Source of the DNA: an uncultured Flavobacteriales bacterium
GTDB taxonomy: Bacteria; Bacteroidota; Bacteroidia; Flavobacteriales_G; Salibacteraceae
Length of the DNA stretch: 64,000 nt
Assembly: GCA_937121175.1 (NCBI GenBank)
Contig: CAKZKD010000005.1
Location: forward strand, 310,001 to 374,000
Direction: 5' to 3'
The position numbers were made by a program, and so were the translations under genes. The notes beneath the pieces were generated by a model. That model was not told the DNA's origin, did no database searches, and worked only from the letters and a program-made list of their open reading frames with translations. This document shows positions 33,140 through 49,489 of this stretch, piece by piece (the first letter of the stretch is position 1; each line of letters opens with the position of its first letter).

Positions 33140-34084
33140 TTACTTTGTGCGCATTATGTATGCCAGTGCAAAATACGGTGGACGGTTTTCGTGAGAATGT
33201 CCAGATCCAGAATATGCAGTAACTCCAGATATACCATGATCATGAGCACCTCCAAAGTTTGTATAAAACGTGTTATCGTGATTGTTTGTATTATCCCCTG
33301 ACTCGTGTCCATAATAGTCTTTACCATTTAAACCATCGGAAGTCTCAATTGCGTGTGTATGTCCACCACCCCATAAGGTGATATCTGCATCGGTTAATGC
33401 GTGCCGATGGGAGGGTATTTGATTTACAGTTAAGGTTACAAGGTTAGCGCCCCCAATAGCATGCGGGTTGTACGCTCCACCAACAACAGAACTATTATTC
33501 CCTCCTGCCCCTACCACAAACCGTTCTCGCAAGTCGGGTGTACCATTATTTCCGTCACAAAGTGCCCATCCATCAGGAATGCTAGTGTCAGCCCCTGACC
33601 ACATAATTACCCCGCCAATTGGGGTAATTCCGTATCCTATAAAACCGGTTGATTTTGTCCATCCGTTGACATCTAATTTCTCTACTGGGCTCGCCACACC
33701 TATTCCTACCTTACCGTGTTTTATGCCTGACGCTGTCATGGTGGTCATGTGAGCTGTATCTGCATTGTTATCAGTTCTATATTCCGTTTTCCAAGGGTTC
33801 ATTGCATACCACTCTGTGTTTCCAGTTGCACCATTACCATAACCTACAAACAGTATATCTAAATTTGTATCGTACACCATCATTCCCTGCGAAAACCCTG
33901 CTCCTGAGCTCATAGCTTCACGTTGCACCGTTGTCATTCTAGGAATTAATAACCCTTTACTATTCGCTTTAATATCCAACACGGCATTACTATCTGGTGA
34001 TGTATTGTTTACACCTATTTGCGCGAGTATCGGATGTATTCCAACTAATAACTGAACTATGAAGCATAATAAGAGTTTTTTCAC
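33140..34084 (-). CDS. Secreted collar-domain protein 1 (AraC cassette)
   Basis: A 314-residue exported protein, GTG start. It has a signal peptide (residues 1-21, ending PILAQ), then the family module: IGVNNTSPDSNAVLDIKAN, GLLIPRMTTVQREAMSSG, MMVYDTNLDILFVGYGNG, MTTMTASGIKHGKVGIG, KLDVNG. A C-terminal phage-tail-collar-like domain follows, with GGVIMWSG, GWALCDG and TPDLRERFVVGAGG, ending HENRPPYFALAYIMRTK. The tip (about residues 195-295) is His/Gly-rich and unlike the other copies. It also lacks the S.PDxxxW motif of copies 3-6. It follows its LytTR gene by 20 bases. Probable role: a secreted or surface adhesin-like fibre tip; not shown. Confidence 0.8.
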   Translation of the reverse strand: MKKLLLCFIVQLLVGIHPILAQIGVNNTSPDSNAVLDIKANSKGLLIPRMTTVQREAMSSGAGFSQGMMVYDTNLDILFVGYGNGATGNTEWYAMNPWKTEYRTDNNADTAHMTTMTASGIKHGKVGIGVASPVEKLDVNGWTKSTGFIGYGITPIGGVIMWSGADTSIPDGWALCDGNNGTPDLRERFVVGAGGNNSSVVGGAYNPHAIGGANLVTLTVNQIPSHRHALTDADITLWGGGHTHAIETSDGLNGKDYYGHESGDNTNNHDNTFYTNFGGAHDHGISGVTAYSGSGHSHENRPPYFALAYIMRTK

Positions 34085-34104
34085 GATTAACGGAGTTTTA
34101 GGGT

Positions 34105-34758
34105 TTATCCAAATTTTAATAACTTCTGATATTTTCTTGACACCGGGATAATGCGGTCATCTATCAATATTTGACTTTTACACTTTTCTTCTATGTACTC
34201 CAGATTTACAATGCAAAACCGATTAATGCGAACAAAATTTTCTGGTAGCTTATTTACAATACCCTTCATAGTACTTCTAACCTTATACAGCCCACCGGTT
34301 GTGTTAACTTCTAGATAGTTGCGGTTAGTTCTTATCAGTTTAATTTTAGCCGAGTTAATCTCTTTAACCCCATAATTACCTTCCACTTCTAGTTTATTAA
34401 AGGTATTACGAGAAATTAGTTTTAACGGAAGAGTTAAATTAATGGCATTGAAAGGTCGAACTAGAAAAAGCGCAGGATTTTCTTGGTAAATTAGATTACA
34501 GATTTCTAGGTTATACACTTCCGATATTATAATAAATGGAGTAGCGTACGCTTTACAGCTTTTAGAAAGTACTCTTGCTGCGGACAAGTTTTCAGGGTCT
34601 AATTCATGGACAATCGCATCCATTGTCCATATTTCGGCTTGCCAATCATCATTTTTCGTTACCGAAAAATGATGCACCTTGTACCCCTGTTTTTGAAGGG
34701 TTAAATACAGTTTATTTTGGGTGACTTTACCTTCTACGAATAGCCCAATTCTTTGCAT
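34105..34758 (-). CDS. LytTR response regulator with degenerate receiver (AraC cassette)
   Basis: A 217-residue protein: receiver-like domain (about 1-115) and C-terminal LytTR DNA-binding domain (about 120-217) with RTNRNYLEV, LPENFVRINRFCIVN and IIPVSRKYQKLL. Aligned by eye to its canonical paralogue at 43448-44104, every key receiver residue is changed. The acidic pair ED in ILILEDE reads VE. The phospho-accepting Asp of ALLDIF reads Glu (IVHEL). The Thr of FLTAN reads Ser, and the Lys of AKPF reads Arg (VRPF). Control by phosphorylation is therefore unlikely. It sits 20 bases upstream of collar gene 1. Confidence 0.87.
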   Translation of the reverse strand: MQRIGLFVEGKVTQNKLYLTLQKQGYKVHHFSVTKNDDWQAEIWTMDAIVHELDPENLSAARVLSKSCKAYATPFIIISEVYNLEICNLIYQENPALFLVRPFNAINLTLPLKLISRNTFNKLEVEGNYGVKEINSAKIKLIRTNRNYLEVNTTGGLYKVRSTMKGIVNKLPENFVRINRFCIVNLEYIEEKCKSQILIDDRIIPVSRKYQKLLKFG

Positions 34759-34838: not shown

Positions 34839-35894
34839 TTAGTCGTTTTTAGATGTAGTAAGTTTAGTTCCGATGTGTTTTTCAAAACAGGCCGAAAGTT
34901 TAGCAGGATTTGAAAACTCAAAAAGCGTCGCTAACTCTTTAACCGTGTAGTTTTGCTTTTGAATTAGTTGCAACACAGCTTGCATTTGGATCCGTCTAAA
35001 ATAGTTGAATAACGTTTGACCAAAAACTTTTTTAAAATCAGATTTCAATCTTGTTGGAGAAACACCGACAATATGAGCGATTTGCGTTACGCCGGGAAAA
35101 GACTTATTTATAGCTTGCTCTAAAATATCTTTAGCCCGAAGAACCGACCCTCTGTTTCTATCAGAGGTTGCAAAAAAATTAATACTGCTTGCTTGTTCGC
35201 GAACCTGATTTTGAAAAAGCTGTATTACATGTTCTAATTTGGTTTCGTATTTAGACAACTGTACCAACTTATCTGCTTCCAAAAAATTTGTGCTCGCTAT
35301 AGAAATGTTTAGTAAATCGTTCAACCTAAGACCATTATCCGGCCAAACAAAAATTTTTGATTTACTATCAATAAACTGCTCAAGAATTGATGATGATGAA
35401 TTAGAATTTTTATTTAAATATTCTAAAATCCAATCTTCGCTAAAAAAAATTCCCAGCGACCTTTCTATACTTTTTTGGAAATGGGAACGTATTGAGCGCG
35501 TTTTTGGTTTGTATAAAACCCAAGAATTTTTAGAATACGGAACACCATCGATAAGCACTACATTTCTGCCGTTGTCACCTTCAACGTCTTCAAAGGCTAG
35601 AGTGTAATAATTAGATGGAATATCTGGAATATTTACACTTTTAAAATTGACGCTGGCTTTAAATTGATAGCAACCGAGAAACCCCCATAGTCCAGGCTCT
35701 TGTTCTTTATAAAACAGCTCCCCTTTCATAATTTCATTGTCCATTTCTACTAGCTGCCGCTCACCATCATGAAATATACTTGGTACAGCAATAAAACTAT
35801 CCAAAATTAAACGAGGGCTATTGGTTACGTACTCCGCCTCAAAAAAACCATTTACAAAAGAAAAATCATTTGCTTCAACTAAATCAACTGACAT
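34839..35894 (-). CDS. AraC-family transcriptional regulator
   Basis: A 351-residue protein with a C-terminal AraC-type double helix-turn-helix (about residues 255-350). The first recognition helix region is TQIAHIVGVSPTRLKSDFKKVFGQTLFNYFRRIQM (positions about 280-315). The second is the YTVKELATLFEFSNPAKLSACFEKHIG region (about 320-343). The N-terminal 250 residues are soluble and not recognised. It is the first gene of a cassette: AraC, LytTR, collar protein. The region upstream (35895-35945) is AT-rich, then runs into a collar pseudogene. Confidence 0.88.
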   Translation of the reverse strand: MSVDLVEANDFSFVNGFFEAEYVTNSPRLILDSFIAVPSIFHDGERQLVEMDNEIMKGELFYKEQEPGLWGFLGCYQFKASVNFKSVNIPDIPSNYYTLAFEDVEGDNGRNVVLIDGVPYSKNSWVLYKPKTRSIRSHFQKSIERSLGIFFSEDWILEYLNKNSNSSSSILEQFIDSKSKIFVWPDNGLRLNDLLNISIASTNFLEADKLVQLSKYETKLEHVIQLFQNQVREQASSINFFATSDRNRGSVLRAKDILEQAINKSFPGVTQIAHIVGVSPTRLKSDFKKVFGQTLFNYFRRIQMQAVLQLIQKQNYTVKELATLFEFSNPAKLSACFEKHIGTKLTTSKND

Positions 35895-35945: not shown

Positions 35946-36396
35946 TTAATTATTAATCAGTAGTAGTTCTACACTGTAGACTATACCGTCATGATTAATT
36001 ATAATAATGTGGGCTTCCGAATAATACTGCAGACTATTTTCGTGTTTCTCTCCGCTTCCGTCATTAAATATTTGGTGTTTGTGTTTGCTACTTTTCTTTT
36101 TATGAACCTGCAGATGAGTTATCCCGGCAAAGGTTATTTGCCCTAAGATTATATTGCCAGTATTTCCTGTTGCTCCTTTAACGTACCCTACAAAAAAGTA
36201 TGTCTAAATCCGTATCATAAACCAGTACACCGTGAGAAAACCCAGCACCCGAACTCATTGCCTCTCGCCGAACAGCAGTAATACGTTGTATACGTGTCAG
36301 TTTATCATTGGCTTTCATATCCAATACTACGTTGGCATCAGGTGCTGCACTATTCACTCCAAGTTGGGATAAAGACGAAAAGCATGAAAAAATACG
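35946..36396 (-). pseudogene. Remnant of a seventh collar-domain gene
   Basis: On the minus strand the conserved N-terminal module is still readable: QLGVNSAAPDANVVLDMKAN, then VRREAMSSGAGFSHGVLVYD and TDLDILF. The frame then breaks: one extra T in a homopolymer (A-run 36192-36197 on the plus strand) causes a stop, and shifting by one base restores VGYVKGATGNTG. The middle of the protein, including the GWALCDG and TPDLRGRF segments, is missing. The C-terminal signature is left as SKHKHQIFNDGSGEKHEN and YY before a stop at 35946. No start codon remains in the right frame. This accounts for most of the 489-base stretch between the AraC gene and the START pseudogene. Confidence 0.8.
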
Positions 36397-36992
36397 GTAT
36401 TATGAACCATCTGAGTTGCCATTGTTTGCTCTACTGGTTGGGCTCAAGACAAATGGGAGCTAAAGAAAGGACAAGAATTCGGTTAAGGTATGGACAAAAG
36501 ATGCTCCGGGCTGGACGCTTAAACAATATAAAGCAGCTTGTCTAATTAACGCTAATGTTGATTCTGTTTACAATTTTATAATCGATTGGGACAAACGAAC
36601 AACGTGGTATTCAGATAATACCGAATGCAACGTATTGCATAAGTCAGGCAATGATGAATTTATTGTTTACTATGTATTTGCTGCGCCATGGCCCGTCGAT
36701 GACCGAGACATCATTAGTAAGTCAATGTGTAATAAAGAACCGGACGGCAGCTACCTCATTCGAGTTTCTACCATACCTCATTATATTCCTAAGAAAAAGG
36801 ACTATGTGCGCATTGAAAAGGCTCAAGGTCTTTGGAAAATACGCCAATTGGATGAAAACACTACCGAAGTAATATTAGAAGGAAAATCAAACACTGGTGG
36901 CGAAGTTCCCGAATGGTTAGCCAATATGTTTATTGAGGATAATCCTTTTAAAAGTTTGACCAACCTTAAAAGAGCACTTTGAGGTTGAATAA
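36384..36992 (+). pseudogene. Frameshifted duplicate of the START-domain gene
   Basis: A near copy of the gene at 32532-33137. About 80 bases around 36520-36600 are almost identical to 32668-32747. There is an extra A in AAGAAAGG near 36466-36473, a frame change in the signal-peptide region, and an extra A in AAAAGAGC near 36968-36974. The longest intact piece still encodes HKSGNDEFIVYYVFAAPWPV through PEWLANMFIEDNPFKSL. If the shifts are corrected the reading ends at TAA 36990-36992, touching the stop of collar gene 2 exactly as the intact copy abuts collar gene 1. The three shifts could in part be sequencing errors, but the adjacent collar remnant also decays, so true pseudogenisation is more likely. 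Confidence 0.82.
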
Positions 36993-37982
36993 TCAATATA
37001 CTCTCATGATAAATGCTAGTACATAATAGGGTGGTCGGATATCAAATGCATCGCCTGATCCTGTATTATCGGTTGTAAATGAATGCTTGTGCTTGCCTCC
37101 AGTACTACTTCCAACAGTTTCTTGCCTGTTACCTGTAGAGTTATGAAAAGCATCTCTAATGGTTCCACTAGTTTCACCATCCTTAATATGATCTGCTCTT
37201 TGTTTATGAGTATGTGCACCGTCAGTATTAGTATTACCTGTATGGCTATGCGCTGGCAAATTTGCTATTGAAAGAGTTTTTTCCCAATTTCCTAAACCAC
37301 TTGTCGATGCAGCCTTTTTATTTCCTGACTTTTCACTTAGATTCCCTGGTTCTTGATAATCAATATGACCATTTAAAGAATCAAACCCGACTATAAATTT
37401 ACCTCTCAAATCTGGTGTTGTATAGCTATTTTCCGAACCTCCATCACAGAGCAACCAACCTATTGGTGGTGTTTTCCCGCTCCACATTATTATACCACCT
37501 ACTGGTACAATTCCATCGCCTTTAAAGGCACCTCCTGGTGGCACCACGATGCTTTTTGCAGTAATGGTTCCATTTACATCAAGCTTAGTTTGAGGGGCGC
37601 TAGTGCCAATTCCAACATTTCCGTGCTTAATTCCTGGGGCTGTCATGGTGGTCATATCTGCGGTTGTCGTATCATTATATTCTCTGTGTTCGGTTTTCCA
37701 AGGGTTCATGGCAAACCATTGTGTATTTCCTGAGGTGCCGTTTCCATAACCTACAAACATTATATTCAAGTCGGTATCGTATACCATCATTCCTTGCGAA
37801 AACCCTGAACTACTCATTGCCTCCCTTTGCACCGTGGTCATTCTCGGAATTAGCAACCCCTTGTTATTGGCTTTCATATCTAGAACGGAATTGGTGTCTG
37901 GGCTCGTATTATTAACGCCAATCTGGGCACTACAAAAAACGGAGTATGAAAGAGCAATAGAAAGAATAAAAATGTTTTTCAT
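36993..37982 (-). CDS. Secreted collar-domain protein 2 (7TM-LuxR cassette)
   Basis: A 329-residue exported protein (signal peptide about 1-19, ending FCSAQ). It has the family N-module IGVNNTSPDTNSVLDMKANN, MTTVQREAMSSSGFSQG, YDTDLNIMFVGYGNG, GNVGIGTSAPQTKLDVNG. The collar-like domain has GGIIMWSGKTPPIGWLLCDG and TPDLRGKFIVGFDS. The tip (about residues 215-310) is distinct from the others (SHTGNTNTDGAHTHKQRADH, GGKHKHSFTTDNTGSGDAF) and lacks the S.PDxxxW motif. It ends FDIRPPYYVLAFIMRVY. It follows its LytTR gene by 11 bases and probably shares its transcript. Confidence 0.8.
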   Translation of the reverse strand: MKNIFILSIALSYSVFCSAQIGVNNTSPDTNSVLDMKANNKGLLIPRMTTVQREAMSSSGFSQGMMVYDTDLNIMFVGYGNGTSGNTQWFAMNPWKTEHREYNDTTTADMTTMTAPGIKHGNVGIGTSAPQTKLDVNGTITAKSIVVPPGGAFKGDGIVPVGGIIMWSGKTPPIGWLLCDGGSENSYTTPDLRGKFIVGFDSLNGHIDYQEPGNLSEKSGNKKAASTSGLGNWEKTLSIANLPAHSHTGNTNTDGAHTHKQRADHIKDGETSGTIRDAFHNSTGNRQETVGSSTGGKHKHSFTTDNTGSGDAFDIRPPYYVLAFIMRVY

Positions 37983-37993
37983 GGAGCTTATTT

Positions 37994-38716
37994 TTACGCA
38001 AAAATGGCCAACTGGCCTTTAAAGTTTCTTGAAATGGGAATTATACGGCTATCCACCAACAACTGTGAGCCACTATATTGTTCAATGTAGTTTGTGTTTA
38101 CAACAAAAAAGCGATTTACTCTTACGAAAGAGTCCGGTAGTTCTTGCATAATATTCTTGAGCGTATCTCGGCGTGTGTAGTGGCCATCAATCGCAATTAT
38201 ATCCAAATAATTTTTTTGTGTTTGAATCAACTGAATTTCACTCGGGTGAACCGATTTAGCTCCAAACCTACCTTTGACTAGGATACTATTTTGCTTGTTT
38301 ACATCAACCATAAGTATCGCCATCCGCAAATCCTCATTTTTTACCGGTTTGTAAAAAAAACCATTAGGCTGTACGGTAAGTACTTTCGCCATTTGCTTTT
38401 CGTTGAGTTTATCAGCAAGTAAAATGAACGCCTTATTTCGCTGTTTCATAATTCCCACTAATTCAAAAGCAGAAATATCACCGCTAGCAGCGACATCAAT
38501 TATAGCGAATTGGAAATCCCAATTACCCTCACTCAAAAAATCGTTAATGGAATGGAACAATGCAACATAGCGGAATCCTTGTTTTCTAAAAAAACGCCGC
38601 CGTTCAGCAGCAGCAAAACGGTCTGTTTCAATGATTACAATACTCTTATCCTTCCCACTCATTACATTGCCTAAAATTGCTCTGGCACTTACCAAAACAT
38701 TAGAATCTAAACTCAA
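37994..38716 (-). CDS. LytTR response regulator with partly degenerate receiver (7TM-LuxR cassette)
   Basis: A 240-residue protein: receiver-like domain (about 25-135) and LytTR domain (about 140-240) with TQKNYLDIIA, LPDSFVRVNRFFVVN and IIPISRNFKG. Compared with canonical paralogues, the phospho-Asp (AIIDVAA) and the Lys (FYKPVK) remain. The acidic pair reads ET (VIIETDR) and the switch Thr is Ala (FILLADK), so normal phosphorylation is doubtful. An internal ATG 18 codons on (38662, MSGKDKSIVIIE) is an equally good start and would give a receiver of usual length. Immediately upstream of collar gene 2. Confidence 0.86.
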   Translation of the reverse strand: MSLDSNVLVSARAILGNVMSGKDKSIVIIETDRFAAAERRRFFRKQGFRYVALFHSINDFLSEGNWDFQFAIIDVAASGDISAFELVGIMKQRNKAFILLADKLNEKQMAKVLTVQPNGFFYKPVKNEDLRMAILMVDVNKQNSILVKGRFGAKSVHPSEIQLIQTQKNYLDIIAIDGHYTRRDTLKNIMQELPDSFVRVNRFFVVNTNYIEQYSGSQLLVDSRIIPISRNFKGQLAIFA

Positions 38717-38872: not shown

Positions 38873-40288
38873 TTATTCAGAGGGTGGACTAAAATTTAAG
38901 TATAAATAGCCAGCGTCGCGCTTCGATTTTACATCGAGTTTATTGAAAATATTCCGTACATGGAACTTCACTGTATTTTCAGAAATAAACTGTTCTTCGG
39001 CAATTTTCTTGTTTAGTTTACCTGCTGATATTTCACGTAAAATTTCGATTTCTTTATTGGTTAACGCAAACTTCTTTTGGAGTTCTCTTTCTAATTGCAC
39101 ACCAATTTCATTTGACTTTCTATTTAGTTTAATCCTATCTGTATAATCCTTCAATTTTTGACGCATTTGATTGTTCTCATCGGCTAAAGTCTTAGCTTGA
39201 TACATAATGGCGTATGTAAAAACAACCATTTCTATTACAGAACCAGCTTTATAGGTCCAAAGCGGCAATCCCAAACCGTGAATACCTAAATGAGGGCTTA
39301 TGTAAAAATCATGTGCAAATAAAAGAGGCACTCCATAAGCTAATGCCAGAATTTTCGCGTAAATCGATTTGTTCCAGAGCAAGATTCCTGCTATCCAAAA
39401 AACATCGCAAGAAAGTAACAGCAAGATTGATATGGAAGAAAAGGCATATTTGTTACCCGTAGATATAAAAATTGCAATACAAGCAAAGGCAAGTACAATG
39501 AATCCAATTCCAACTTTTCTGAGCTGAGGCAGTTCTTTTTTTAAGTTCAAATAGCTCGTGGTAAAAAGTACCGCAGCTATGGGCAAAATGGAATTAATAA
39601 AAGGCTCCACAGATTCAGTTATAATACCGTTTCCAAATATCAACAACACCAAGCCGTCTTTGTATAGTACATTCATTGACAGACCGACAACCATTAAGGT
39701 ATATTGCAAATAGGTAATATTTCTAAAAGATAAATAGGAGAAAAGATTGATTAAAATAATACAGAGTACAATACCTATATAAATTCCGATTATCATTCGA
39801 CTTGTCGCCTCTTCTTCAAAGTAGTCATCAGATTTTAATATTTCGATTGGGATTCTGGCTTCAAGCAAGCAATTAACCTTTATAAATAGTGTTCGACTTT
39901 CTGTCGAAGGAGGTATTTTATAGGTCTGAAATCGTTTTTTGGGTAAAGGTAAAATCTCTCTAGTATTCTCATAAAGGTTGGTCCGAGACAAATGCGCTTC
40001 TGGAAGCGTAATAATTAAACTCGATTGAGTTGCTTCTAACTCAACTTTAAACCAATAAACACCGTTATCAAGGCCGTTATAAATCCTCTCGTTAAAAGGT
40101 TCCCAACTTTTATTTTTTTGAACCTCCTTTAGGGTAATGTCTTGATGAGTGTAGGATATTTTCTGCGCAAATACACTATTAACACAAAACATCAAACAGA
40201 AACCCAAATACCAGCGCTTTGGTTTGCTCAAATTGCAGAAAACGGAGGGTATTAATAAATTCAATTGAAGTTTTATTTCGAGTCTCAA
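38873..40288 (-). CDS. 7TM (7TMR-DISM-like) membrane protein with LuxR-type DNA-binding domain
   Basis: A 471-residue membrane regulator. After a signal-like segment (FCLMFCVNSVFAQ, about residues 30-42) comes an extracytoplasmic beta-rich domain (about 45-150; NGVYWFKVELE, LPEAHLSRTNLYEN) like the DISMED2 sensor domain. Then follow about seven membrane helices (about 153-370). A short coiled coil leads to a C-terminal LuxR-type helix-turn-helix (about 405-465; FALTNKEIEILREISAGKLN, FISENTVKFHVRNIFNKLDV). So a sensor and a DNA-binding output are joined in one membrane-bound protein. The start is TTG and uncertain. It heads the cassette with the LytTR gene at 37994 and collar gene 2. Confidence 0.85.
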   Translation of the reverse strand: MRLEIKLQLNLLIPSVFCNLSKPKRWYLGFCLMFCVNSVFAQKISYTHQDITLKEVQKNKSWEPFNERIYNGLDNGVYWFKVELEATQSSLIITLPEAHLSRTNLYENTREILPLPKKRFQTYKIPPSTESRTLFIKVNCLLEARIPIEILKSDDYFEEEATSRMIIGIYIGIVLCIILINLFSYLSFRNITYLQYTLMVVGLSMNVLYKDGLVLLIFGNGIITESVEPFINSILPIAAVLFTTSYLNLKKELPQLRKVGIGFIVLAFACIAIFISTGNKYAFSSISILLLLSCDVFWIAGILLWNKSIYAKILALAYGVPLLFAHDFYISPHLGIHGLGLPLWTYKAGSVIEMVVFTYAIMYQAKTLADENNQMRQKLKDYTDRIKLNRKSNEIGVQLERELQKKFALTNKEIEILREISAGKLNKKIAEEQFISENTVKFHVRNIFNKLDVKSKRDAGYLYLNFSPPSE

Positions 40289-40406: not shown

Positions 40407-41357
40407 CTAATATACACGCATGATATAGGCGAGTGTGTAGTAAGGCGGACGGTTTTCATGATGCCCACCTCCGCCAGCGAATCCTACACCTATTGTGTGA
40501 CTATGATCCCCGACTGACGCGGTAGATCGATTCGTCTTCCATTGAGCAATATCCGGACAAGATACCGTATTATCATTATCGTTAATATTATGGATTTGTT
40601 TTTTATACCCCCAGAATTTGTGCCTATGATTGCCACTTGAAGAAGACGTTGCCGTATGGGTATGACTTGGTATTTGACTTATTGTTAGTTTAACACTATC
40701 CATACCTCCAGATTTACCTACTGTAGTGCCTGCAGTGCTTAAAGACCCCGGATTAATATATTCTGAATCACCCGGATCATACCCAACAACAAATCGACCC
40801 CTTAAGTCTGGTGTTTTATAACCGTTGGAAGTAGTGCCATCACATAGGACCCAGCCGATAGGAGCGACCTTACCACTCCACATAACAATTGTTCCAAGCA
40901 CCGCTACCCCCTTTCCAATGAACTCATCGGCTTTTACTTTACCTACTACTTCCAATTTTTTAGTAGGATTATTGGTTCCAATACCAATTCGACCATGCTT
41001 AAGGCTTGGAGCGGTCATAGTTGTCATGTGAGCCGTATCAGTATTAGAATTCGTTCGATATTCTGTCTTCCAAGAATTCATAGCATACCACTTTTTATTC
41101 CCGTTCGAGCCATTTCCGTAACCTACAAACAGAATGTCCAAATCAGTATCATACACCATCATTCCTTGAGAGAATCCAGCTCCAGAACTCATAGCTTCTC
41201 TTTGAACTGTAGTAAGCCTTGGAATCAATAAACCTTTATTCGTTGCGTTAATGTCTAAAACAGCAGCACTATCTGGGAAGGGGTTATTAATTCCTACTTG
41301 CCCGTTAATTGCACTACAACCAAAAACTAATACTAAGAAAAACAAAAACCTAATCAT
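40407..41357 (-). CDS. Secreted collar-domain protein 3 (kinase cassette 1)
   Basis: A 316-residue exported protein (signal peptide about 1-19, ending INGQ). The N-module is conserved (VGINNPFPDSAAVLDINATN, LTTVQREAMSSGAGFSQG, YDTDLDILFVGYGNG, HGRIGIGTNNPTKKLEV). The collar-like domain has GTIVMWSGKVAPIGWVLCDG and TPDLRGRFVVGYDPG. The tip carries SHTHTATSSSSGNHRHKFWG, then the motif DNDNTVSCPDIAQW shared in form with copies 4-6, and SVGDHSHTIGVGFAGGGG before HENRPPYYTLAYIMRVY. Last of three collar genes in a row; the gap from copy 4 is 13 bases. Confidence 0.8.
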   Translation of the reverse strand: MIRFLFFLVLVFGCSAINGQVGINNPFPDSAAVLDINATNKGLLIPRLTTVQREAMSSGAGFSQGMMVYDTDLDILFVGYGNGSNGNKKWYAMNSWKTEYRTNSNTDTAHMTTMTAPSLKHGRIGIGTNNPTKKLEVVGKVKADEFIGKGVAVLGTIVMWSGKVAPIGWVLCDGTTSNGYKTPDLRGRFVVGYDPGDSEYINPGSLSTAGTTVGKSGGMDSVKLTISQIPSHTHTATSSSSGNHRHKFWGYKKQIHNINDNDNTVSCPDIAQWKTNRSTASVGDHSHTIGVGFAGGGGHHENRPPYYTLAYIMRVY

Positions 41358-41370: not shown

Positions 41371-42351
41371 TTACTTGACCCTCATTATATAAGCCAATGC
41401 GTAATATGGGGGTCTATTTTCGTGCTTAACATCTCCCCCAGTGTTGTTTACCGTAATACTATGATTATGGCTTCCCTCGTAGAATGTTTGTTGGGTGATA
41501 CTCCAGTTCCTTGAATCGGGGCAGGAAACTTCATTATCATCATCACATATATTACTTCCTTGCCTTTGATAACCTTCAAAGAAATGAGAATGTCCACCGG
41601 CATTACTGGAACTAGCATTATGAACGTGTGAAGGCATCTCACTTAAGCTGAGCCTAACACTATCTTCTCCGCCCGTGTTCCCAATTGGCGAAAAATTTTT
41701 ACTACTTAATTCACCAGGTTCTGAGTAACGAGAATCACCCGAATTATATCCAACTACAAACCTCCCACGTAAATCCGGTGTTTTAAAACCGTCTTTTACA
41801 CTTCCATCGCAAATTGCCCAGCCAGTTGGCGCTATTTTCCCACTCCATAACATTATGGTTCCTAGTGGAAATGCACCTCGACCAATAAATTCGGTAGCTT
41901 TTATGGTTCCATTTGCTTCTAATTTTTTAGTAGGCTGAGAAATTCCTATACCAACATTTCCATGATTTACTCCTGAAGAGGTCATGGTTGTTAGGTGAGC
42001 TTGGCTGCTATTTCCAGCTGTTCTATATTCAGACTCCCATGGGTTAAGAGCATACCACTTATTGCTATTTTGTCCGTTTCCGTATCCAACGAATAAAATA
42101 TCCAAATCAGTATCGTACACTATCATTCCTTGAGCAAATCCACTTGCGGCCATTATTTCTCTTTGCGCAGTTGTTAACCTTGGAACCAAAAAACCTTTAT
42201 CTGAAGATGATATATCCACAATAGCATTGGAATCTGGCATCGTGTTATTTATCCCAATTTGCGATTTAGCTCTCCCAAAAAACATAACGACAAGCAGAAT
42301 TGGAAAGAATACCCTGCACCTATTTTGTCTTTTTATTTTTAATCGGACCAT
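41371..42351 (-). CDS. Secreted collar-domain protein 4 (kinase cassette 1)
   Basis: A 326-residue exported protein; signal peptide about 1-30 (basic start, ending GRAKSQ). The N-module is slightly more diverged than in the other copies (IGINNTMPDSNAIVDISSSD, LTTAQREIMAASGFAQG, IVYDTDLDILFVGYGNGQ). The collar-like domain has GTIMLWSGKIAPTGWAICDG and TPDLRGRFVVGYNSG. The tip has SHVHNASSSNAGGHSHFFEG, DDDNEVSCPDSRNW and GSHNHSITVNNTGGDVK, ending HENRPPYYALAYIMRVK. The gaps to copies 5 and 3 are 8 and 13 bases, so all three are one transcript. Confidence 0.8.
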   Translation of the reverse strand: MVRLKIKRQNRCRVFFPILLVVMFFGRAKSQIGINNTMPDSNAIVDISSSDKGFLVPRLTTAQREIMAASGFAQGMIVYDTDLDILFVGYGNGQNSNKWYALNPWESEYRTAGNSSQAHLTTMTSSGVNHGNVGIGISQPTKKLEANGTIKATEFIGRGAFPLGTIMLWSGKIAPTGWAICDGSVKDGFKTPDLRGRFVVGYNSGDSRYSEPGELSSKNFSPIGNTGGEDSVRLSLSEMPSHVHNASSSNAGGHSHFFEGYQRQGSNICDDDNEVSCPDSRNWSITQQTFYEGSHNHSITVNNTGGDVKHENRPPYYALAYIMRVK

Positions 42352-42359: not shown

Positions 42360-43304
42360 TTATTCAACCCTCATAATAAAAGCCAACGAATAGTACAATG
42401 GCCTGTTTTCATGATTACCTCCTCCTCCTTGATTACTTATGGTAATCGTATGAGTATGTGTCCCTGCATATTTCGTGTACCTAGTTTCGCTCCAATCACG
42501 GCTATCCGGTGCAGAAATATTATTATTCTCATTGTCGCCTATGTTATTGTACCTTCGATCATAACCTTGAAGAGTGTGTCTATGACCACCTGCAGAGCCA
42601 CAATTTGCTACGTGATTATGACTTGGCAATCCGTTTATAGTAAGCGTTACCATTTTTGCTCCCCCAATTTTGCCCACCGTTACTCCTTTAGTGCTTAACA
42701 AACCTGGTTCAGAATAGTCAGGATTAGATGAATTGTATCCAGCGATAAAGCGACCTTTAAGGTTAGGTGTTTTAAATCCATTATACACTCCTCCATCGCA
42801 CAATTCCCAACCATTAGGTGGAACTGTTCCGCTCCAAAGAAGGATAGAGCCAATAGGTGCAATGCCATTTCCTTCAAAATCCACCGCTTTGACGGTACCG
42901 TTTACCTCCAATTTTTCGGTTGGGTTCGAAACGCCAATCCCTACGTTTCCATGATTAACCAGACCATCGGTCATAGTAGTCATATGTGCAGTGTCAGAAT
43001 TATTATCGGTCCTATATTGAGTTTTCCAAGGGTTGAGAGCGTACCATTTAGAATTACCGCTCCCATATCCAACAAAAAGAACATCAAGATCAATATCGTA
43101 AACCATCATGCCTTGAGAGAATCCATTTCCTGAATTCATAGCTTCTCTTTGCATGGTGGTCATTCTTGGAATAAGCAAACCTTTATTATTGGACTTTAGG
43201 TCTAAAATTGCATTTGTATCAGGAGATGGATTGTTTACACCAACTTGTGCAGCAGTTTCTGCAATTGAAAAGAAAAAAAAAGTAATGTAGACAAATATTC
43301 GCAC
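42360..43304 (-). CDS. Secreted collar-domain protein 5 (kinase cassette 1)
   Basis: A 314-residue exported protein with a GTG start and a very hydrophobic signal peptide (about 1-19, VYITFFFFSIAETAAQ). N-module: VGVNNPSPDTNAILDLKSNN, MTTMQREAMNSGNGFSQG, YDIDLDVLFVGYGSG, HGNVGIGVSNPTEKLEVNG. The collar-like domain has GSILLWSGTVPPNGWELCDG and TPNLKGRFIAGYNSS. The tip has SHNHVANCGSAGGHRHTLQG, ENNNISAPDSRDW and GTHTHTITISNQGGGG, ending HENRPLYYSLAFIMRVE. First of three collar genes. It lies 143 bases downstream of its LytTR gene and probably has its own promoter there. Confidence 0.8.
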   Translation of the reverse strand: MRIFVYITFFFFSIAETAAQVGVNNPSPDTNAILDLKSNNKGLLIPRMTTMQREAMNSGNGFSQGMMVYDIDLDVLFVGYGSGNSKWYALNPWKTQYRTDNNSDTAHMTTMTDGLVNHGNVGIGVSNPTEKLEVNGTVKAVDFEGNGIAPIGSILLWSGTVPPNGWELCDGGVYNGFKTPNLKGRFIAGYNSSNPDYSEPGLLSTKGVTVGKIGGAKMVTLTINGLPSHNHVANCGSAGGHRHTLQGYDRRYNNIGDNENNNISAPDSRDWSETRYTKYAGTHTHTITISNQGGGGNHENRPLYYSLAFIMRVE

Positions 43305-43447: not shown

Positions 43448-44104
43448 TTACTCAAGATTTTTTCTGTAATTCCGAGAAATAGAAATAATTTGATCCTTAA
43501 TTTTCAGTTGGGAGTTTGTTTTCTGGTCAATTAGATCGGTATTTACAACACAAAAACGATTTACTTGAACAAAAGAATCTGGTAATTGCGAAACCATTTC
43601 TTTCAATGAACTCCGATGGTGAAATACCTCATTTACGGTGTGTATATCCAAGTAATTTCGGTCTGTTTTGACAAACAAAATTTCATGAGCCGCAAGTTCC
43701 TTAACTCCATAATTCCCCTGAACCTTAATTTTTGGAGCTTGATTAGAAAATATTATTTGCAACGCGGCCTTTACATCAAAGTCTTTGAATGGTTTTGCAA
43801 TATATCCTTGCGGCTTTAATTGCGCGGCCTTTGCAAGCGTTGAACTATCCTGATTCGCGGTTAAAAAAATAAACGGGATATTTCGACTACTCAACTGTGT
43901 AGCAACATCAAGCCCTGTAAGAGTTCCGGCAAGAAAAATATCTAACAGGGCGGCATCAAATTTCCAATCGGTATTTTCTAAGAATTCTTCTGCGTTATCA
44001 AAAGGCCCTACAGGATTATAACCAAGATTTTTTATTACATCATGAATATGATCACTCACAAAAAACTCATCTTCTAGAATTAATATTGAATTATTTGAAT
44101 TCAT
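43448..44104 (-). CDS. LytTR response regulator, canonical receiver (kinase cassette 1)
   Basis: A 218-residue two-domain regulator. The receiver (about 5-120) has a complete site: acidic pair in SILILEDEFFV, phospho-Asp in AALLDIF, Thr in FIFLTANQD and Lys in YIAKPFKDFD. The LytTR domain (about 125-218) has KTDRNYLDIH, LPDSFVQVNRFCVVN and ISISRNYRK. The frame is open to 44188, but that would overlap the kinase gene; ATG 44104 is the natural start, 31 bases after the kinase stop. It should be the phosphorylation partner of the kinase at 44136 and control collar genes 5, 4 and 3. Confidence 0.92.
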   Translation of the reverse strand: MNSNNSILILEDEFFVSDHIHDVIKNLGYNPVGPFDNAEEFLENTDWKFDAALLDIFLAGTLTGLDVATQLSSRNIPFIFLTANQDSSTLAKAAQLKPQGYIAKPFKDFDVKAALQIIFSNQAPKIKVQGNYGVKELAAHEILFVKTDRNYLDIHTVNEVFHHRSSLKEMVSQLPDSFVQVNRFCVVNTDLIDQKTNSQLKIKDQIISISRNYRKNLE

Positions 44105-44135
44105 GATTGCGGTAATTATTAATCCTCGTTTATTT

Positions 44136-45773
44136 CTATTGAGAAAAAGTGAATTGGTATGTACCCGTTTCATTGTCAACAACAACATCTCTAGCGCTTA
44201 TTTTTCGAATGAGCTTAGCGATAAGACCGGTTCCCATTCCCGAACTTTTTTCTAAATCGAATGTAGAACCGTCTGAATAAAAAAACGTAAATTTTTCTTC
44301 GTTTTTCTTTAAAATAATGTCTATTGCAGAATCTGATACATTTCCGTGACTGAGAGTATTACTTAGCAATTCGTTAAGAATAAGTCCAAAATAAATAGTC
44401 CGCTCATTATTGAGTTGGATCCGTACCAATTTGTAATTTATTTTCCTGTTGAACAAATCGAAACTCTTGTAATAATTAATAATACCTTCAAAATAATCCT
44501 TCAGATCAACTTTTTCTCCATGAGAATTCATGGTGAGCTGCTTATGCAGGGCACTAATCGTATGAACCTTATTAGAAAGCTCGTCAATTAGGTCGTCCGT
44601 GCTTTTTAAGTTTTCTTTCTTCGAGAAACGGAGTAAAGAAATAACCATTTGCAAATTATTTTTAATTCGGTGATTACTTTCTAGCATCAACAGCTCATAA
44701 TTATCCAGCGAAAGTTCTAACTGGTCATTTATCGATGCTATTTTTTTCTTTGATTTGGATTCTCTTTGAAATAAGAAAATTAATACCCCAAGAGATATAA
44801 GGGCAGAAATCAGAAAAGCCAAAATCCCATTTTTTAGAGTAGCTTCTTCTTTTAGTTGAATTTCCTTTTCTCTAGCAATAAATTCGAGCTCTTTTGCTTG
44901 ATTCCTATACTTATCGGTTTCTTGAAGTACCAAGTACGCCGCCATTTGATTGTTATGCGTCTCTCTGTCTTTTTCCCACAAAAATTCTTCTTGTGCAACT
45001 CTCCATTTCAAATACGACAAGGAGTCGTTCTGCGACAAGGCTATCTTCTGAAAAACCTTAGTCACTGCACGGTTAATTGCATACCATTTTTTCGTTTTGG
45101 TAGTTTCCCAGATAAATTTAGTCAAAGAATCTGCCTTCAAAAATTCATTATTATCCGCATATAGATTTGCAATATGTAGTGCAGTTCCAACATAATTCTC
45201 TGTATCCTTCGCTGCTCGAAAAGCTTCCGCAGCTTTATCTAAATACGTATATGCATTGCTTTTTTCTCCATATTGCAGCTCGTAAAAACCAAGTTCTCGT
45301 TCCAAGCCAGCTCTGTGTTCTAGTATATTATATTTCTCCGAATAGGATAAGGCAGAATCTATATAACGCTTAGCTGAATCAATCTGTGACACGATATCAT
45401 CACTATTTGTCTCGTGATATATGGCGGCAATGCGACCAAGTTTACGTACGTGCAATGAAGGGAAATTAGTAGAATTTTCGAGACCAAATAATAGCTCTAA
45501 GCCGGCATCATAATTATCGGTTCTGCGCATCAATTCTGCCAGAGAAATCGAAGTATTTATTCTCTCTTTGTCCCAATTTTCTGCGGTGGAAATTGATATT
45601 GCCTCCTTTAATTTACTACCAGCTTCTGCATAATTTGAAAGACTAATATATTGTTCGGCTGCGTTTAGTAAGTTGTCGAACTCTACTTTTTTAGTTGTTT
45701 CATTGCATTGCCCTGAAAAATTAATCAAGAACAGAAAAACACAAATTATGACAATGAATCGATTTATTTTCAC
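44136..45773 (-). CDS. Sensor histidine kinase, TPR-like sensor plus HisKA_2 (kinase cassette 1)
   Basis: A 545-residue membrane kinase with a GTG start. The signal peptide (about 1-22) is followed by an exported helical-repeat region of TPR type (about 30-300; repeated 'A...Y....A' helices such as AEQYISLSNYAEAGSKLKEA). One membrane helix lies at about 308-330 (ILAFLISALISLGVLIFLF). The HisKA_2-type phosphoacceptor is ESNHRIKNNLQMVISLLRF (His near residue 367). The ATPase domain has the N box LILNELLSNTLSHG and the G box GMGTGLIAKL. The ligand is unknown; TPR sensors often read peptides or proteins. It precedes its regulator by 31 bases. Confidence 0.9.
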   Translation of the reverse strand: MKINRFIVIICVFLFLINFSGQCNETTKKVEFDNLLNAAEQYISLSNYAEAGSKLKEAISISTAENWDKERINTSISLAELMRRTDNYDAGLELLFGLENSTNFPSLHVRKLGRIAAIYHETNSDDIVSQIDSAKRYIDSALSYSEKYNILEHRAGLERELGFYELQYGEKSNAYTYLDKAAEAFRAAKDTENYVGTALHIANLYADNNEFLKADSLTKFIWETTKTKKWYAINRAVTKVFQKIALSQNDSLSYLKWRVAQEEFLWEKDRETHNNQMAAYLVLQETDKYRNQAKELEFIAREKEIQLKEEATLKNGILAFLISALISLGVLIFLFQRESKSKKKIASINDQLELSLDNYELLMLESNHRIKNNLQMVISLLRFSKKENLKSTDDLIDELSNKVHTISALHKQLTMNSHGEKVDLKDYFEGIINYYKSFDLFNRKINYKLVRIQLNNERTIYFGLILNELLSNTLSHGNVSDSAIDIILKKNEEKFTFFYSDGSTFDLEKSSGMGTGLIAKLIRKISARDVVVDNETGTYQFTFSQ

Positions 45774-46031: not shown

Positions 46032-47015
46032 TTAATAAACTCGCATAATATAAGCCAACGTATAAAATTGCGGCCGATTTTCATGACCAGTAACAGATAA
46101 AGTTGGTGTTCCCCCTGTTAAGCCAGCTGTGGCTGTATGTGTATGTGACCCAGCACTTGCGCTTACCTTTGAACCATTCCAATCGTTACAATCTGGACTT
46201 GATATACTACTTCCGTTGTCCGATTTGTTACTTCCACAAGCAAGAAAATTATAAGCCTCGTAGCCGTGGGTGTGGGCACCGCCTGAGGCTATGGTCACGG
46301 GGTGGTTATGTTTTGGCATTTCTGCTAACGAAAGGTAAACCCTTGGAGTCCCGCCGGTCAAACCAGTAGTAGTATCCTTTGTGCTCAAATTTCCAGGTTG
46401 GTTATAATCATTATTGAATACTCGAACAGGACTATAACCGGCCACAAAACGTCCGCGTAAATCGGGTGTTTTGTATCCATTCACGGTTGTACCATTGCAC
46501 AATGCCCAACCCTGTGGCGCAACTGTTCCACTCCACATTATTATTCCACCTAATGGAGTAGAGCCATTCCCCACAAATTTTCCTGTTGTTTTTATGTCCC
46601 CGTTAACCTCAAGTTTAGCAGTTGGTGTTGCTGTTCCAATCCCTACCTTTCCGTGTTTAATATTTGCAGCCGTCATGGTAGTCATATGAGCGGTATCCGC
46701 ATTGTTATCGGTTCTATACTCAGTTTTCCAAGGGTTCATTGCGTACCATTTTGTATTGCCTGTTGCTCCCACACCGTAGCCTACAAAAAGCACATCCAAA
46801 TCGGTGTCATACACCATCATACCTTGAGAAAAACCTGCGCCAGTACTCATAGCCTCTCTTTGTACAGTTGAAAGTCTAGGTATCAATAAGCCTTTATTAG
46901 TGGCATTCATATCCATAACAGCATTGGCATCAGGAGCCGTGGTATTTACGCCTATTTGAGCATTTACATAGAATCCAGAAAGGAAAACAACAACCAGAGC
47001 AAAAAACGGTTTCAT
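46032..47015 (-). CDS. Secreted collar-domain protein 6 (kinase cassette 2)
   Basis: A 327-residue exported protein from ATG 47015. An upstream ATG at 47063 would put 16 residues before the signal peptide and is rejected. The signal peptide is about 1-19 (ending FYVNAQ). N-module: IGVNTTAPDANAVMDMNATN, LSTVQREAMSTGAGFSQG, YDTDLDVLFVGYGVG, HGKVGIGTATPTAKLEVNG. The collar-like domain has GGIIMWSGTVAPQGWALCNG and TPDLRGRFVAGYSPV. The tip has KHNHPVTIASGGAHTHGYEA, an extra Cys (FLACGS), the motif NGSSISSPDCNDW and SAGSHTHTATAGLTGG, ending HENRPQFYTLAYIMRVY. Only collar gene of cassette 2; 143 bases from its LytTR gene, the same gap as for copy 5. Confidence 0.8.
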   Translation of the reverse strand: MKPFFALVVVFLSGFYVNAQIGVNTTAPDANAVMDMNATNKGLLIPRLSTVQREAMSTGAGFSQGMMVYDTDLDVLFVGYGVGATGNTKWYAMNPWKTEYRTDNNADTAHMTTMTAANIKHGKVGIGTATPTAKLEVNGDIKTTGKFVGNGSTPLGGIIMWSGTVAPQGWALCNGTTVNGYKTPDLRGRFVAGYSPVRVFNNDYNQPGNLSTKDTTTGLTGGTPRVYLSLAEMPKHNHPVTIASGGAHTHGYEAYNFLACGSNKSDNGSSISSPDCNDWNGSKVSASAGSHTHTATAGLTGGTPTLSVTGHENRPQFYTLAYIMRVY

Positions 47016-47069
47016 AAAGGAATAATTTACCTTCAAAACTCGGGGTGTAAGCATTTCTTTCAAAATAAT

Positions 47070-47158: not shown

Positions 47159-47827
47159 TTATACCACCCCTCGATAATTTCGAGAAATTGGAATAACATA
47201 CTCTGCTATTTTTATTTGAGAAGCATTGCGTTGTTCGATAAAGTATGAATTGACTATTGTGAAACGATTAACTTGAATAAAAAAATCAGGTAATAACTGA
47301 GTAATATCTTTAAGCGTGCTTCTATGGTGAAAGGTACCTTCTTGGGTAACTATGTCTAGGTAGTTTTTATCCGTTTTGATAAATAAAATTTCGGATGGCG
47401 CAATTTCTTTTATGCCAAAAGACCCATTAACTCCAATTTTAGGGTGTTGGTTTAAGAATAAAATTTCTAAAGCAGCTTCTACATCCAAATCTTTAAAGGG
47501 CTTACCAATGTAGCTCTTTGGTTTCAATGCAGCAGCTTTTTTTAACGTGAACTTGTCTTGGTTTGCCGTTAAAAAAATAAACGGTTTCTTCTTTTCGTTC
47601 AGCAATTTCCCTATATCCAAACCAGAAAGTTTTTTCGATAAGAATACATCAACGAGCGCTGCATCAAAACTCCAATCCGTTTCTTGCAAAAACTCTTCAC
47701 CACTCTTGAACAAACCATGAACATTATACCCTAATGAGTGGACTAAGCCTTTTAGGTGACTTGCCACAAAAAACTCATCTTCAAGTATGACGACAGACAA
47801 TTTAGTTTTTGATTTCATGTGTTGCAT
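47159..47827 (-). CDS. LytTR response regulator, canonical receiver (kinase cassette 2)
   Basis: A 222-residue regulator very like the one at 43448. The receiver has all key residues: SVVILEDEFFV, AALVDVFLSK, FIFLTANQD and YIGKPFKDLD. The LytTR domain has KTDKNYLDIV, LPDFFIQVNRFTIVN and VIPISRNYRG. An ATG three codons in (47818) is an alternative start. It is 33 bases downstream of its kinase gene and 143 bases upstream of collar gene 6. The likely partner is the kinase at 47861; cross-talk with kinase 1 is possible because the two pairs are close paralogues. Confidence 0.92.
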   Translation of the reverse strand: MQHMKSKTKLSVVILEDEFFVASHLKGLVHSLGYNVHGLFKSGEEFLQETDWSFDAALVDVFLSKKLSGLDIGKLLNEKKKPFIFLTANQDKFTLKKAAALKPKSYIGKPFKDLDVEAALEILFLNQHPKIGVNGSFGIKEIAPSEILFIKTDKNYLDIVTQEGTFHHRSTLKDITQLLPDFFIQVNRFTIVNSYFIEQRNASQIKIAEYVIPISRNYRGVV

Positions 47828-47860
47828 TTGGTCAAATAAACTGCGGCTTAAATTTATAAG

Positions 47861-49489
47861 TTATGCAGAAAACTTAAAACTATAAGTGCCTGTTTTTTTG
47901 TTCATTATTGTTTCTGAAACTTGAATTCTATCTAGTAATTCCTTAATTAATTCGGTGCCAGTTCCTGTCATTTTCGAATTTTCAAAATTCGAACCATCTG
48001 AATAAAAAAACAAAAACTTGTTCTCCTTCTTAATTAACTTAATATTTATTTCAGAATTGCTCTTACTATGGGCTATGGTGTTACTTAATAATTCATTTAA
48101 AATTAGTCCGAAATACACTATTCTTTCGTTATTAATTTCTACGCTATCAAGAGTTAAATCTACCTTTTTCTCTAAAATTGAAAATCTCTTGTAGTGGTTT
48201 ACTATGGTTTCAATGTACACTTTCAAATCGACTTCTTCTCCATGAGAACTCATGGTTAATTGTTCGTGTAAAGAGCTAATAACGTGGATTTTGTTTGATA
48301 AATCATCAATTATTACATCTCCCTTTTTGCCTTGATTTATCTTTGCATATCGAACCAGAGAGAGTATCATCTGTAAATTATTTTTAATTCTATGGTTACT
48401 CTCGAGCATAAGCAAACGATAATTGTCATTTGCTTTTGATAGGCTTTTATTGGTGCGGTAAATTCGTCTTTTCAGTGTTCGTTCTCTAAAAAACAACAAA
48501 CCAATGGTCAAAGCAATCGTTCCAGACAGAATAAAATAAAATAGAAATCTATTTTTTTTTGCTGCCTCTTCTTTTAAGTACAACGCCTCCTCTTTTTCTT
48601 CAAGTTTGGAAATTAAAAAATCGGACTTCGACTTATTCAATAAATGCATTTCATTAAAGGCCTTATAATCCTTGAACGCCATTGTTTCTTGGCTACGAAG
48701 AAATAGCTGCTCTTTAGAAATTAACTTCCACTTTAAAAAAGAAATGGAATCCTCATTAACCAAAGCTATTGATTCGAATAATTCGGAAAGCGAGAGTTTT
48801 ATTGAATACCAATTTCTGGACTTAACTATATTCCACAGATATCGAGATAATGAATCTGATTTTGAATAGATTTTTTCGTTATTAAAACTGCGCGAAACAT
48901 GAACCAGCGTACCAACATAGTTCTCGGTATCTCCTTGCGCAATAAATACATCCGCGGCATTCATCAATAGACTACGACCAGTATCGTGCATGGAAGATTC
49001 AACATAAACCAACCCTTGCTCTCTCAATAATGTTGGTAAATGCTCTCTAACATCGTTTTCTACGCATACTTTTATTGCAGAATCAAGGTAAAACTTTACA
49101 GAATCAAGATATCCAAGACCAATTGGCAAATCCGACCTTTCGTGATGTATAGCTGCAATTCGACCAAGTTGTCTGGTTTGCAAATCTGGGTAATGTTCTA
49201 ACCCTTCTAAAGCATAAAGTATGTCTAATCCTTTCGAGAATGCAGTTACAGAGCGGAAATGCTCTGCAAGCGAAATCTTAGTGTTCAATAGTTCCCAATT
49301 CCAATTTTCAGCATTGGCTATGGTTATAGCTTTTCTATAGCTTTCCTCGACTTCTTCATATTTTTTCTCATTCCGAAAGTTTTTAGCATCGGTTACGGCC
49401 TCATCAAAGTACACTCGTTGCTGAGTGCTATCTTGTGCTCGAGATAGGTTTGTTATCAGCACATAAACCAAAACAAGAATAAGTCTCAT
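47861..49489 (-). CDS. Sensor histidine kinase, TPR-like sensor plus HisKA_2 (kinase cassette 2)
   Basis: A 542-residue paralogue of the kinase at 44136 with the same layout. Signal peptide about 1-18 (ending SRAQ). Exported TPR-like helices about 25-300. Membrane helix about 312-330 (FLFYFILSGTIALTIGLLFF). HisKA_2 phosphoacceptor ESNHRIKNNLQMILSLVRY (His near 364), then SSHGEEVDLKVYIETIVNHY, the N box LILNELLSNTIAHS and the G box GTGTELIKEL. The TPR part is much more diverged between the two kinases than the kinase core, consistent with different input signals. It starts 47 bases after kbl on the same strand; GAACGTTC (49494-49501), a perfect palindrome, is just upstream. Confidence 0.9.
   Translation of the reverse strand: MRLILVLVYVLITNLSRAQDSTQQRVYFDEAVTDAKNFRNEKKYEEVEESYRKAITIANAENWNWELLNTKISLAEHFRSVTAFSKGLDILYALEGLEHYPDLQTRQLGRIAAIHHERSDLPIGLGYLDSVKFYLDSAIKVCVENDVREHLPTLLREQGLVYVESSMHDTGRSLLMNAADVFIAQGDTENYVGTLVHVSRSFNNEKIYSKSDSLSRYLWNIVKSRNWYSIKLSLSELFESIALVNEDSISFLKWKLISKEQLFLRSQETMAFKDYKAFNEMHLLNKSKSDFLISKLEEKEEALYLKEEAAKKNRFLFYFILSGTIALTIGLLFFRERTLKRRIYRTNKSLSKANDNYRLLMLESNHRIKNNLQMILSLVRYAKINQGKKGDVIIDDLSNKIHVISSLHEQLTMSSHGEEVDLKVYIETIVNHYKRFSILEKKVDLTLDSVEINNERIVYFGLILNELLSNTIAHSKSNSEINIKLIKKENKFLFFYSDGSNFENSKMTGTGTELIKELLDRIQVSETIMNKKTGTYSFKFSA

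Follow-up and report, generated by a model that had tools for sequence, protein, structure and literature searches.

In the 64-kb stretch of marine Bacteroidota DNA analyzed here (the window), four minus-strand blocks between a START-domain gene and kbl each contained a LytTR regulator gene immediately 5' of a gene for a collar-domain fibre protein (4/4 blocks). On balance, we favor a reading in which the array arose by displacement and amplification of a fibre-tip gene and now encodes alternative tips for a surface structure linked to the T9SS, a LytTR gene lying beside each set of tip genes.

The four-block, single-strand layout described in the initial annotation was recovered in full: all fourteen array genes were located as intact minus-strand ORFs, and the order and domain calls agreed with Pfam matches to HisKA_2, LytTR, Collar, 7TMR-DISM with LuxR, and HTH_18. 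Block 1 consists of the kinase HK1 (47861..49489), for which a signal peptide, an extracytoplasmic TPR-like region, one transmembrane segment, and a HisKA_2 core were predicted, followed by the response regulator LYT1 (47159..47827) and collar 6 (46032..47063), assigned as an exported fibre protein by Pfam and sequence comparison. Block 2 comprises HK2 (44136..45773; 42% identical to HK1), LYT2 (43448..44188), and collars 5 (42360..43304), 4 (41371..42351), and 3 (40407..41357). The first gene of block 3 encodes a 7TMR-DISM membrane protein with a LuxR (GerE) HTH (38873..40288) and precedes LYT3 (37994..38716) and collar 2 (36993..37982); that of block 4 encodes an AraC-family regulator with HTH_18 (34839..35894) and precedes LYT4 (34105..34758) and collar 1 (33140..34084). 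LYT2 and LYT3 probably begin further downstream than their ORFs, near 44104 and 38662, respectively. HisKA_2 was detected in 2/2 kinases, LytTR (PF04397) in 4/4 regulators, and Collar (PF07484) in 6/6 fibre proteins, with the match of collar 1 (E 0.0018) falling below the cut-off. Between blocks 3 and 4 lie a plus-strand pseudo-START gene (about 36420..36982), which duplicates 32532-33137 and carries two one-base frameshifts relative to START, and a dead seventh collar on the minus strand (about 36003..36393), of which N-terminal and C-terminal remnants persist. The spacing in blocks 1 and 2 is tight between kinase and LytTR (about 20-33 bp) and loose between LytTR and collar (95 and 143 bp); in blocks 3 and 4, it is loose between the first regulator and LytTR (about 210 and 80 bp) and tight between LYT3 and collar 2 (11 bp) and between LYT4 and collar 1 (20 bp).

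The genome contained just 8 LytTR matches of the array type and 7 strong collar matches, the pseudogene included, yet four LytTRs are packed within 14 kb, each 5' of a collar gene, and the clustering is therefore not due to chance. The flanking genes FtsZ/YqeY/START and kbl also bracket collar genes in the congeners G033 and G034, which excludes a misassembly of scattered paralogues.

The five other collars were 50-59% identical to collar 6, and these identities together with the phylogenetic trees indicated that the array paralogues are related by descent. Each collar combines a predicted signal peptide, a conserved domain of ~130 aa, and a variable tip; the N domains were 56-78% identical, and the loops of the C domain 23-47%. 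Read from these features, the collars are exported and carry a phage-tail-tip domain at the C terminus, as expected from the secreted tip protein proposed in the initial annotation. They lack a T9SS signal of their own, a point against the favored reading, in which their surface exposure is presumed. The AlphaFold model of the collar 6 monomer was of low confidence (pLDDT 60, pTM 0.28), so that its fold matches serve as a lead, although one backed by profile search. The collar profile matched chains of the Bdellovibrio mosaic adhesive trimeric (MAT) fibre proteins in the PDB, which are likewise exported, phage-tail-fibre-like, and present as many paralogues, with a signal peptide followed directly by a conserved domain of ~130 aa, diverse tips that are adhesive in MATs, and S74 and non-S74 versions (PMC10769870); S74 versions of the collar N domain occurred in the congener G032. 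MATs differ in phylum and lifestyle, and the homology seen is with the stalk region (residues 97-147 in the best match).

Because the Collar domain also occurs in phage tail fibres, we considered whether the array is a prophage remnant or a phage-derived tail-fibre locus. No phage genes, structural or other, were found among the array genes, the collars have signal peptides, and viral matches were confined to the C domain, with 77/80 hits starting at residue 115 or later; moreover, relatives place collar genes in a T9SS-linked surface operon. A prophage origin was rejected on these grounds as extremely improbable.

That operon adjoins the array in the same window, from 50711 onward, and was overlooked in the initial annotation of the collar context. 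It encodes, on the plus strand and in order, a probable outer-membrane barrel (50711..52606; suspected from sequence, with no Pfam hit), a giant protein of 2451 aa (52606..59961), an FN3-domain protein (59961..61991), a 3039-aa giant with a T9SS type A sorting domain (61992..64000, continuing beyond the window), a type B/CHU_C giant, and PorP/SprF, and its collar slot is empty. Outside the genus, a collar gene immediately precedes the gene of a giant secreted protein within the surface operon at 9/9 loci; the collar gene directly precedes the type A giant in other genera, and the FN3 protein precedes the collar or, once (in genome G406), is fused to it. The succession of a TIGR04131/CHU_C giant and PorP/SprF corresponds to T9SS type B adhesin operons of the SprB/SprF type (PMC9143113). 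Unlike those, the operon here adds the probable barrel, a further giant, the FN3 protein, and the type A giant, and includes collar fibres in other genera.

Next, we focused on the regulators. Both kinases matched HisKA_2 and carried a conserved SNHRIKNN motif with the phospho-acceptor His, and LYT1 and LYT2 combined the DE/D/T/K active site of an intact receiver with a LytTR domain. By their residues and gene adjacency, blocks 1 and 2 are canonical kinase–LytTR pairs comparable to LytTR regulators of the AgrA/ComE/LytR type with a cognate kinase, but differ from these in having a HisKA_2 kinase with a TPR-like sensor and in belonging to an array of tandem LytTR copies, each beside its own fibre gene, in which two copies (LYT3 and LYT4) have pseudo-receivers. 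Blocks 3 and 4 have neither an adjacent kinase nor an intact receiver active site. The first acidic residue and the Thr are changed in LYT3, and the phospho-Asp, the Lys, and the acidic pair in LYT4, whose structure model retained the receiver fold with ComE as the best PDB match. The initial annotation had regarded the second gene of each block as constant, a claim that fails on these degenerate receivers. The receiver motif was intact in 15/15 kinase-linked LytTRs and broken in 3/3 kinase-less ones, namely LYT3, LYT4, and one copy in the congener G034 (Fisher 0.0012, with shared ancestry ignored), and these kinase-less LytTRs lost receiver residues while keeping the DNA-binding domain. The receivers of LYT3 and LYT4 were 12-27% identical to those of LYT1 and LYT2, and the DNA-binding domains 44-52%. 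Differences between LYT3 and LYT4 by codon position were 0.67/0.56/0.66 for the receiver, against 0.46/0.29/0.59 for the DNA-binding domain, indicating that DNA binding is under selection. Pseudo-receiver response regulators lacking catalytic residues have been reviewed (PMC12632262); LYT3, LYT4, and the G034 copy resemble them, but here intact and degenerate paralogues share one locus and are sorted by the presence or absence of a kinase gene.

The DNA-binding domains of all four LytTRs were 44-57% identical to one another and had VNRF in common, at a place where V/THRS or similar stands in relatives from outside the genus. Since LytTR paralogues cross-regulate in S. mutans (PMC6193735), the four LytTRs might bind the same sites, with the pseudo-receiver copies acting as constitutive activators or competitors of the two phosphorylated ones, and the array would then set the dose of one collar regulon instead of producing separate tips. 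We regard this as unlikely, because no shared site was found upstream of the four blocks and about half of the DNA-binding domain sequence has diverged as well. A search for LytTR direct repeats upstream of collars and regulators gave nothing clearly beyond shuffles (best intergenic p about 0.08 for repeats about 21 bp apart, a spacing that is that of the LytTR Regulatory System (LRS) and may not be that of these LytTRs). That no LytTR site turned up 5' of the collars also counts against the favored reading. Sigma-70 promoter and terminator hits were no commoner than in shuffles, and Bacteroidota promoters differ from the sigma-70 model. A conserved stretch 5' of collars in three congeners was rejected as a candidate operator, as it is absent from the window. 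In the LRS, a membrane inhibitor gene lies downstream of the LytTR gene, and the direct repeats lie upstream of the operon (PMC6193735). Block 3 is similar in that a LytTR, probably phosphorylation-independent, lies beside a membrane protein, but its order is reversed, with the collar downstream and the 7TM gene upstream, its membrane partner is a 7TM-LuxR protein, and a vestigial receiver is present.

LytTR relics were found 155-250 bp upstream of collar genes in the congeners G032 and G034, which showed that the LytTR–collar cassette predates this species and decays. The LytTR–collar pair is, as read from these loci, the true unit of the array, and its recurrence bears out the modularity proposed earlier. 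The linkage, recorded by relics in G032 and G034, is not universal: G033 has collars at the locus without LytTR, and outside the genus, collars lie in the T9SS-linked operon. The kinase was absent from 3/3 congeners, and no kinase relics were found at their loci or in blocks 3 and 4. Relatives thus lose regulators, and LytTR/kinase control is dispensable, a further point against the favored reading. In support of the favored reading, HK–LytTR pairs precede secreted fibre-type genes in two genomes (G009 and G027), and less closely related pairs lie before large surface-type genes on other contigs of the array-bearing genome (C12, C19, and C27); those of three genomes (G008, G031, and G262) have unrelated neighbors, which counts against the favored reading. 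The trees grouped LYT1 with LYT2 and collars 3-6 together, both times to the exclusion of blocks 3 and 4, at modest supports (86/77 and 87/72, respectively), in agreement with whole-block duplication.

Close relatives of the 7TM-LuxR and AraC genes were absent from the 35 family genomes searched; in the AraC protein, it is the N-terminal part that lacks relatives in the family. The swapped first gene proposed in the initial annotation therefore stands as an observation in one genome, where different regulator classes are indeed present, and it is the position of these genes that suggests a functional link to the collars. Their uniqueness and loose spacing weigh against the favored reading. Tandem HK–LytTR–collar copies could instead be decaying as duplication debris, with the 7TM-LuxR and AraC genes as incidental insertions and no joint regulation beyond ordinary autoregulation. 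The dead collar and dead START within the array, the relics and losses at congener loci, and the unique, loosely spaced first genes of blocks 3 and 4 are consistent with this explanation, which we consider possible but doubtful: the fourteen array genes are all intact although the paralogues are 40-65% diverged, codon positions are constrained in collars 1 and 2 as well as in the DNA-binding domains of LYT3 and LYT4, and the two kinase-less LytTRs lie so close to their collars.

According to the reading of alternative fibre tips, the collars would be exported through Sec and probably trimerise like phage short-tail-fibre tips, with the conserved N domain docking to a partner encoded by the surface operon starting at 50711 and the variable C domain binding a ligand. 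In this genus, the collar gene would have moved out of its operon slot and been amplified between START and kbl, next to HK–LytTR pairs. The kinase of blocks 1 and 2 would phosphorylate its LytTR, and the LytTR would in turn control the neighboring collar gene or genes. Blocks 3 and 4 lack a kinase; there, the receiver may have become a pseudo-receiver, and the LytTR would work without phosphorylation, probably under the control of either its own abundance or the 7TM-LuxR or AraC protein encoded upstream. The choice of tip could thus depend on the input. An adhesive role would fit this scheme. More tentatively, the array may represent a selector of surface tips that takes several inputs. Its parallel cassettes would each combine a differing sensor or regulator class with a LytTR and one fibre version capping the same T9SS-linked structure, and new inputs would be wired in by replacing the sensor gene 5' of a LytTR, after which the receiver of that LytTR would degenerate to a pseudo-receiver. 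Searches of the literature turned up no paper on LytTR–collar cassettes or LytTR control of T9SS adhesins and, as the initial annotation had supposed, no named system with this layout. To our knowledge, MATs have no dedicated LytTR cassettes.

If the favored reading is right, this bacterium would maintain several recognition tips that can be exchanged on a single surface structure, each governed by a separate switch, and the tip protein would combine a phage tail-tip domain with a bacterial export domain. The presence of intact and degenerate receivers in one locus provides a natural series of two-component regulators turning phosphorylation-independent and makes the origin and control of pseudo-receivers testable. 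Furthermore, with a slot for the collar conserved in the surface operons of Bacteroidia, this uncharacterised protein family gains a concrete candidate partner, the family of the protein encoded at 59961.

All fourteen genes that the initial annotation placed in the array (33140-49489 of the window, G000:C5:310001-374000, part of a 3.73-Mb draft genome) were found on the minus strand at the coordinates claimed, and each gene class was backed by Pfam. The nearest relatives compared were the Flavobacteriales MAGs G034 (CAJIZH01, labelled UBA6770), G033 (PAME01, labelled Crocinitomicaceae), and G032 (CAJVZZ01), hereafter the congeners.

Direct-repeat analysis showed that blocks 3 and 4 were separated by a dead seventh collar gene and a broken copy of START, the gene flanking the array. 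Because the arrangement of this pseudo-START and collar 2 mirrored that of the intact START and collar 1, a segment carrying START and a collar gene appears to have been duplicated in tandem. Substitutions in the pseudo-START (36420-36982) fell mainly on third codon positions (0.15/0.08/0.40), and two one-base frameshifts were present, so its death was recent and the gene had worked for most of its existence. The main rival explanation, that the whole array is duplication debris with incidental insertions, has this duplication on its side; we regard it as rather unlikely, and the state of the LytTR regulators bears on it from the other side.

All five receiver residues were present in every kinase-adjacent LytTR (15/15; two in the window and 13 elsewhere), whereas receiver residues were lost in all three kinase-less copies (LYT3, LYT4, and the G034 copy), a different set in each (Fisher test, 0.0012 for 15 + 3 LytTRs with ancestry ignored). 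LYT3 and LYT4 shared 12-27% identity with LYT1 and LYT2 in the receiver versus 44-52% in the DNA-binding domain; LYT1 and LYT2 were 59% and 57% identical in these domains. The three codon positions differed between LYT3 and LYT4 to nearly the same extent in the receiver (0.67/0.56/0.66), the DNA-binding domain showed constraint (0.46/0.29/0.59), and the predicted structure of LYT4 (pLDDT 87; best match, ComE) kept the receiver fold. The lost residues, the constrained DNA-binding domain, and the retained fold indicate that selection has preserved LYT3 and LYT4 as DNA-binding regulators with pseudo-receivers. In the LytTR tree, the kinase-less copies grouped together (94/92), two of them as long branches. 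No kinase relic was found in blocks 3 and 4, and neither the 7TM-LuxR gene nor the AraC gene had a close relative among 35 family genomes. These two genes stand 80-210 bp from their LytTR, and we hypothesize, from position only, that they may act as inputs to LytTR or collar.

The START-kbl locus of G034 contained an intact LytTR gene (L031:15983-16687) with collars and a stop-truncated LytTR start (L031:16707-16766); a LytTR tail in this genome (L031:11817-11876; weak, E 0.08) lay ~155 bp upstream of a collar gene. G032 retained tails 215 and 249 bp upstream of same-strand collar genes (L036:6042-6110 and 4002-4058); other tails lay at L036:6855-6935 and L035:412-534. Given these relics, the START-kbl locus of G033, where collars were present and LytTR was not found, and the kinase found in none of the three congeners, the LytTR-collar unit predates this species, and the cassettes were once wider in the genus and are undergoing loss. 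Separately, a conserved stretch, AAACGTnTnTGCC ... AATTATTCAACAGAAATAC, a candidate operator or promoter, preceded collar genes in three congeners, one of the genomes having it in two places (L031:14379-14397, L032:11491-11509, L034:11579-11597, and L035:2129-2147); it was absent from the window. The collar locus of three congeners also carried a conserved opposite-strand pair of membrane-protein-like genes, the first without a Pfam match (L031:14433-15904, L034:10071-11519, and L035:628-2075).

The Sec-type signal peptides of all six collars end before an invariant Gln, in agreement with the Bacteroidetes Q-rule (PMC5837995), and are followed directly by a conserved N domain of ~130 residues. 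The C domain matched PF07484/Gp10_C of phage tail collar fibres and, by profile search, solved tail-fibre tips, including C24 of Bizionia, T4 gp12 and gp37, and the Bdellovibrio MAT fibres. Since identity between paralogues was 56-78% in N domains, 37-57% in C domains, and 23-47% in C-domain loops, the collars combine a constant base and a tip that varies. The N domain of G032 was joined to Peptidase_S74 C-termini in place of the C domain. Because 77 of 80 viral contig matches began at residue 115 or later, and the match reported from residue 29 was a phage fibre that lacks the N domain, the tip domain is one that phages have too and the export domain appears bacterial. From their sequences, HK1 and HK2 are predicted to comprise a signal peptide, an extracytoplasmic TPR-like region (TPR_12 match in HK2 weak, E 0.003 only), one transmembrane segment, and a HisKA_2 core, whose histidine is present in both.

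In all nine non-genus collar loci examined to their end (G008, G023, G025, G069, G250, G134, G071, G406, and own contig C12), the next gene downstream of the collar gene or tandem encoded a large secreted relative of the 3039-aa protein starting at 61992; the similarity is partly in repeats, and shared position and N-terminal pattern outweigh the scores. The gene before the collar in G008, G023, G025, C12, and G071 was homologous to the FN3 protein (59961-61991); G406 has such a homologue and the collar fused in one polypeptide (L090:1744-3927). The surface operon was present in the window, G033, and G034 with the slot between FN3 gene and giant empty, and there the collars lay across kbl; G034 also had a collar directly after a PorP gene (L032:11616-12533). 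Both T9SS sorting domain types, A and B, and a PorP/SprF protein are encoded by downstream genes of the window operon, which in this resembles SprB/SprF systems (PMC9143113). The collar proteins themselves carried no T9SS signal; the operon context ties them to a putative T9SS-linked surface structure.

Related HK-LytTR pairs preceded a T9SS-sorted protein followed by a protein with a collar-N-like stretch (G009) or a 1869-aa S74 fibre (G027), and more distant pairs stood ahead of large surface-type genes on own contigs C12, C19, and C27, the C12 operon containing a collar. Because these loci fit while neighbours of the pair in G008, G031, and G262 were unrelated, HK-LytTR control of secreted surface genes is probably a recurring but not exclusive theme. 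On C19 (L059:1-11915), two kinases and a LytTR immediately preceded the gene of a 2295-aa protein containing SprB repeats and LamG-like and lamin-tail domains. The HK-LytTR pair adjoined a ~560-aa protein with no Pfam match in three distant Bacteroidia genomes (L085:8285-10404, L082:9124-10794, and L084:9517-11211), and in G149 such a set was followed by a 130-aa stand-alone collar without a signal peptide.

A literature search of an open-access library found no description of this arrangement. The initial proposal, a modular system connecting different inputs to alternative versions of one secreted tip protein, was supported in part and was altered by the operon context, the LytTR relics, and the receiver decay. 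The most likely mechanism, held with somewhat better than even confidence, is that a T9SS-linked surface structure would have alternative fibre tips under the control of dedicated LytTR regulators.
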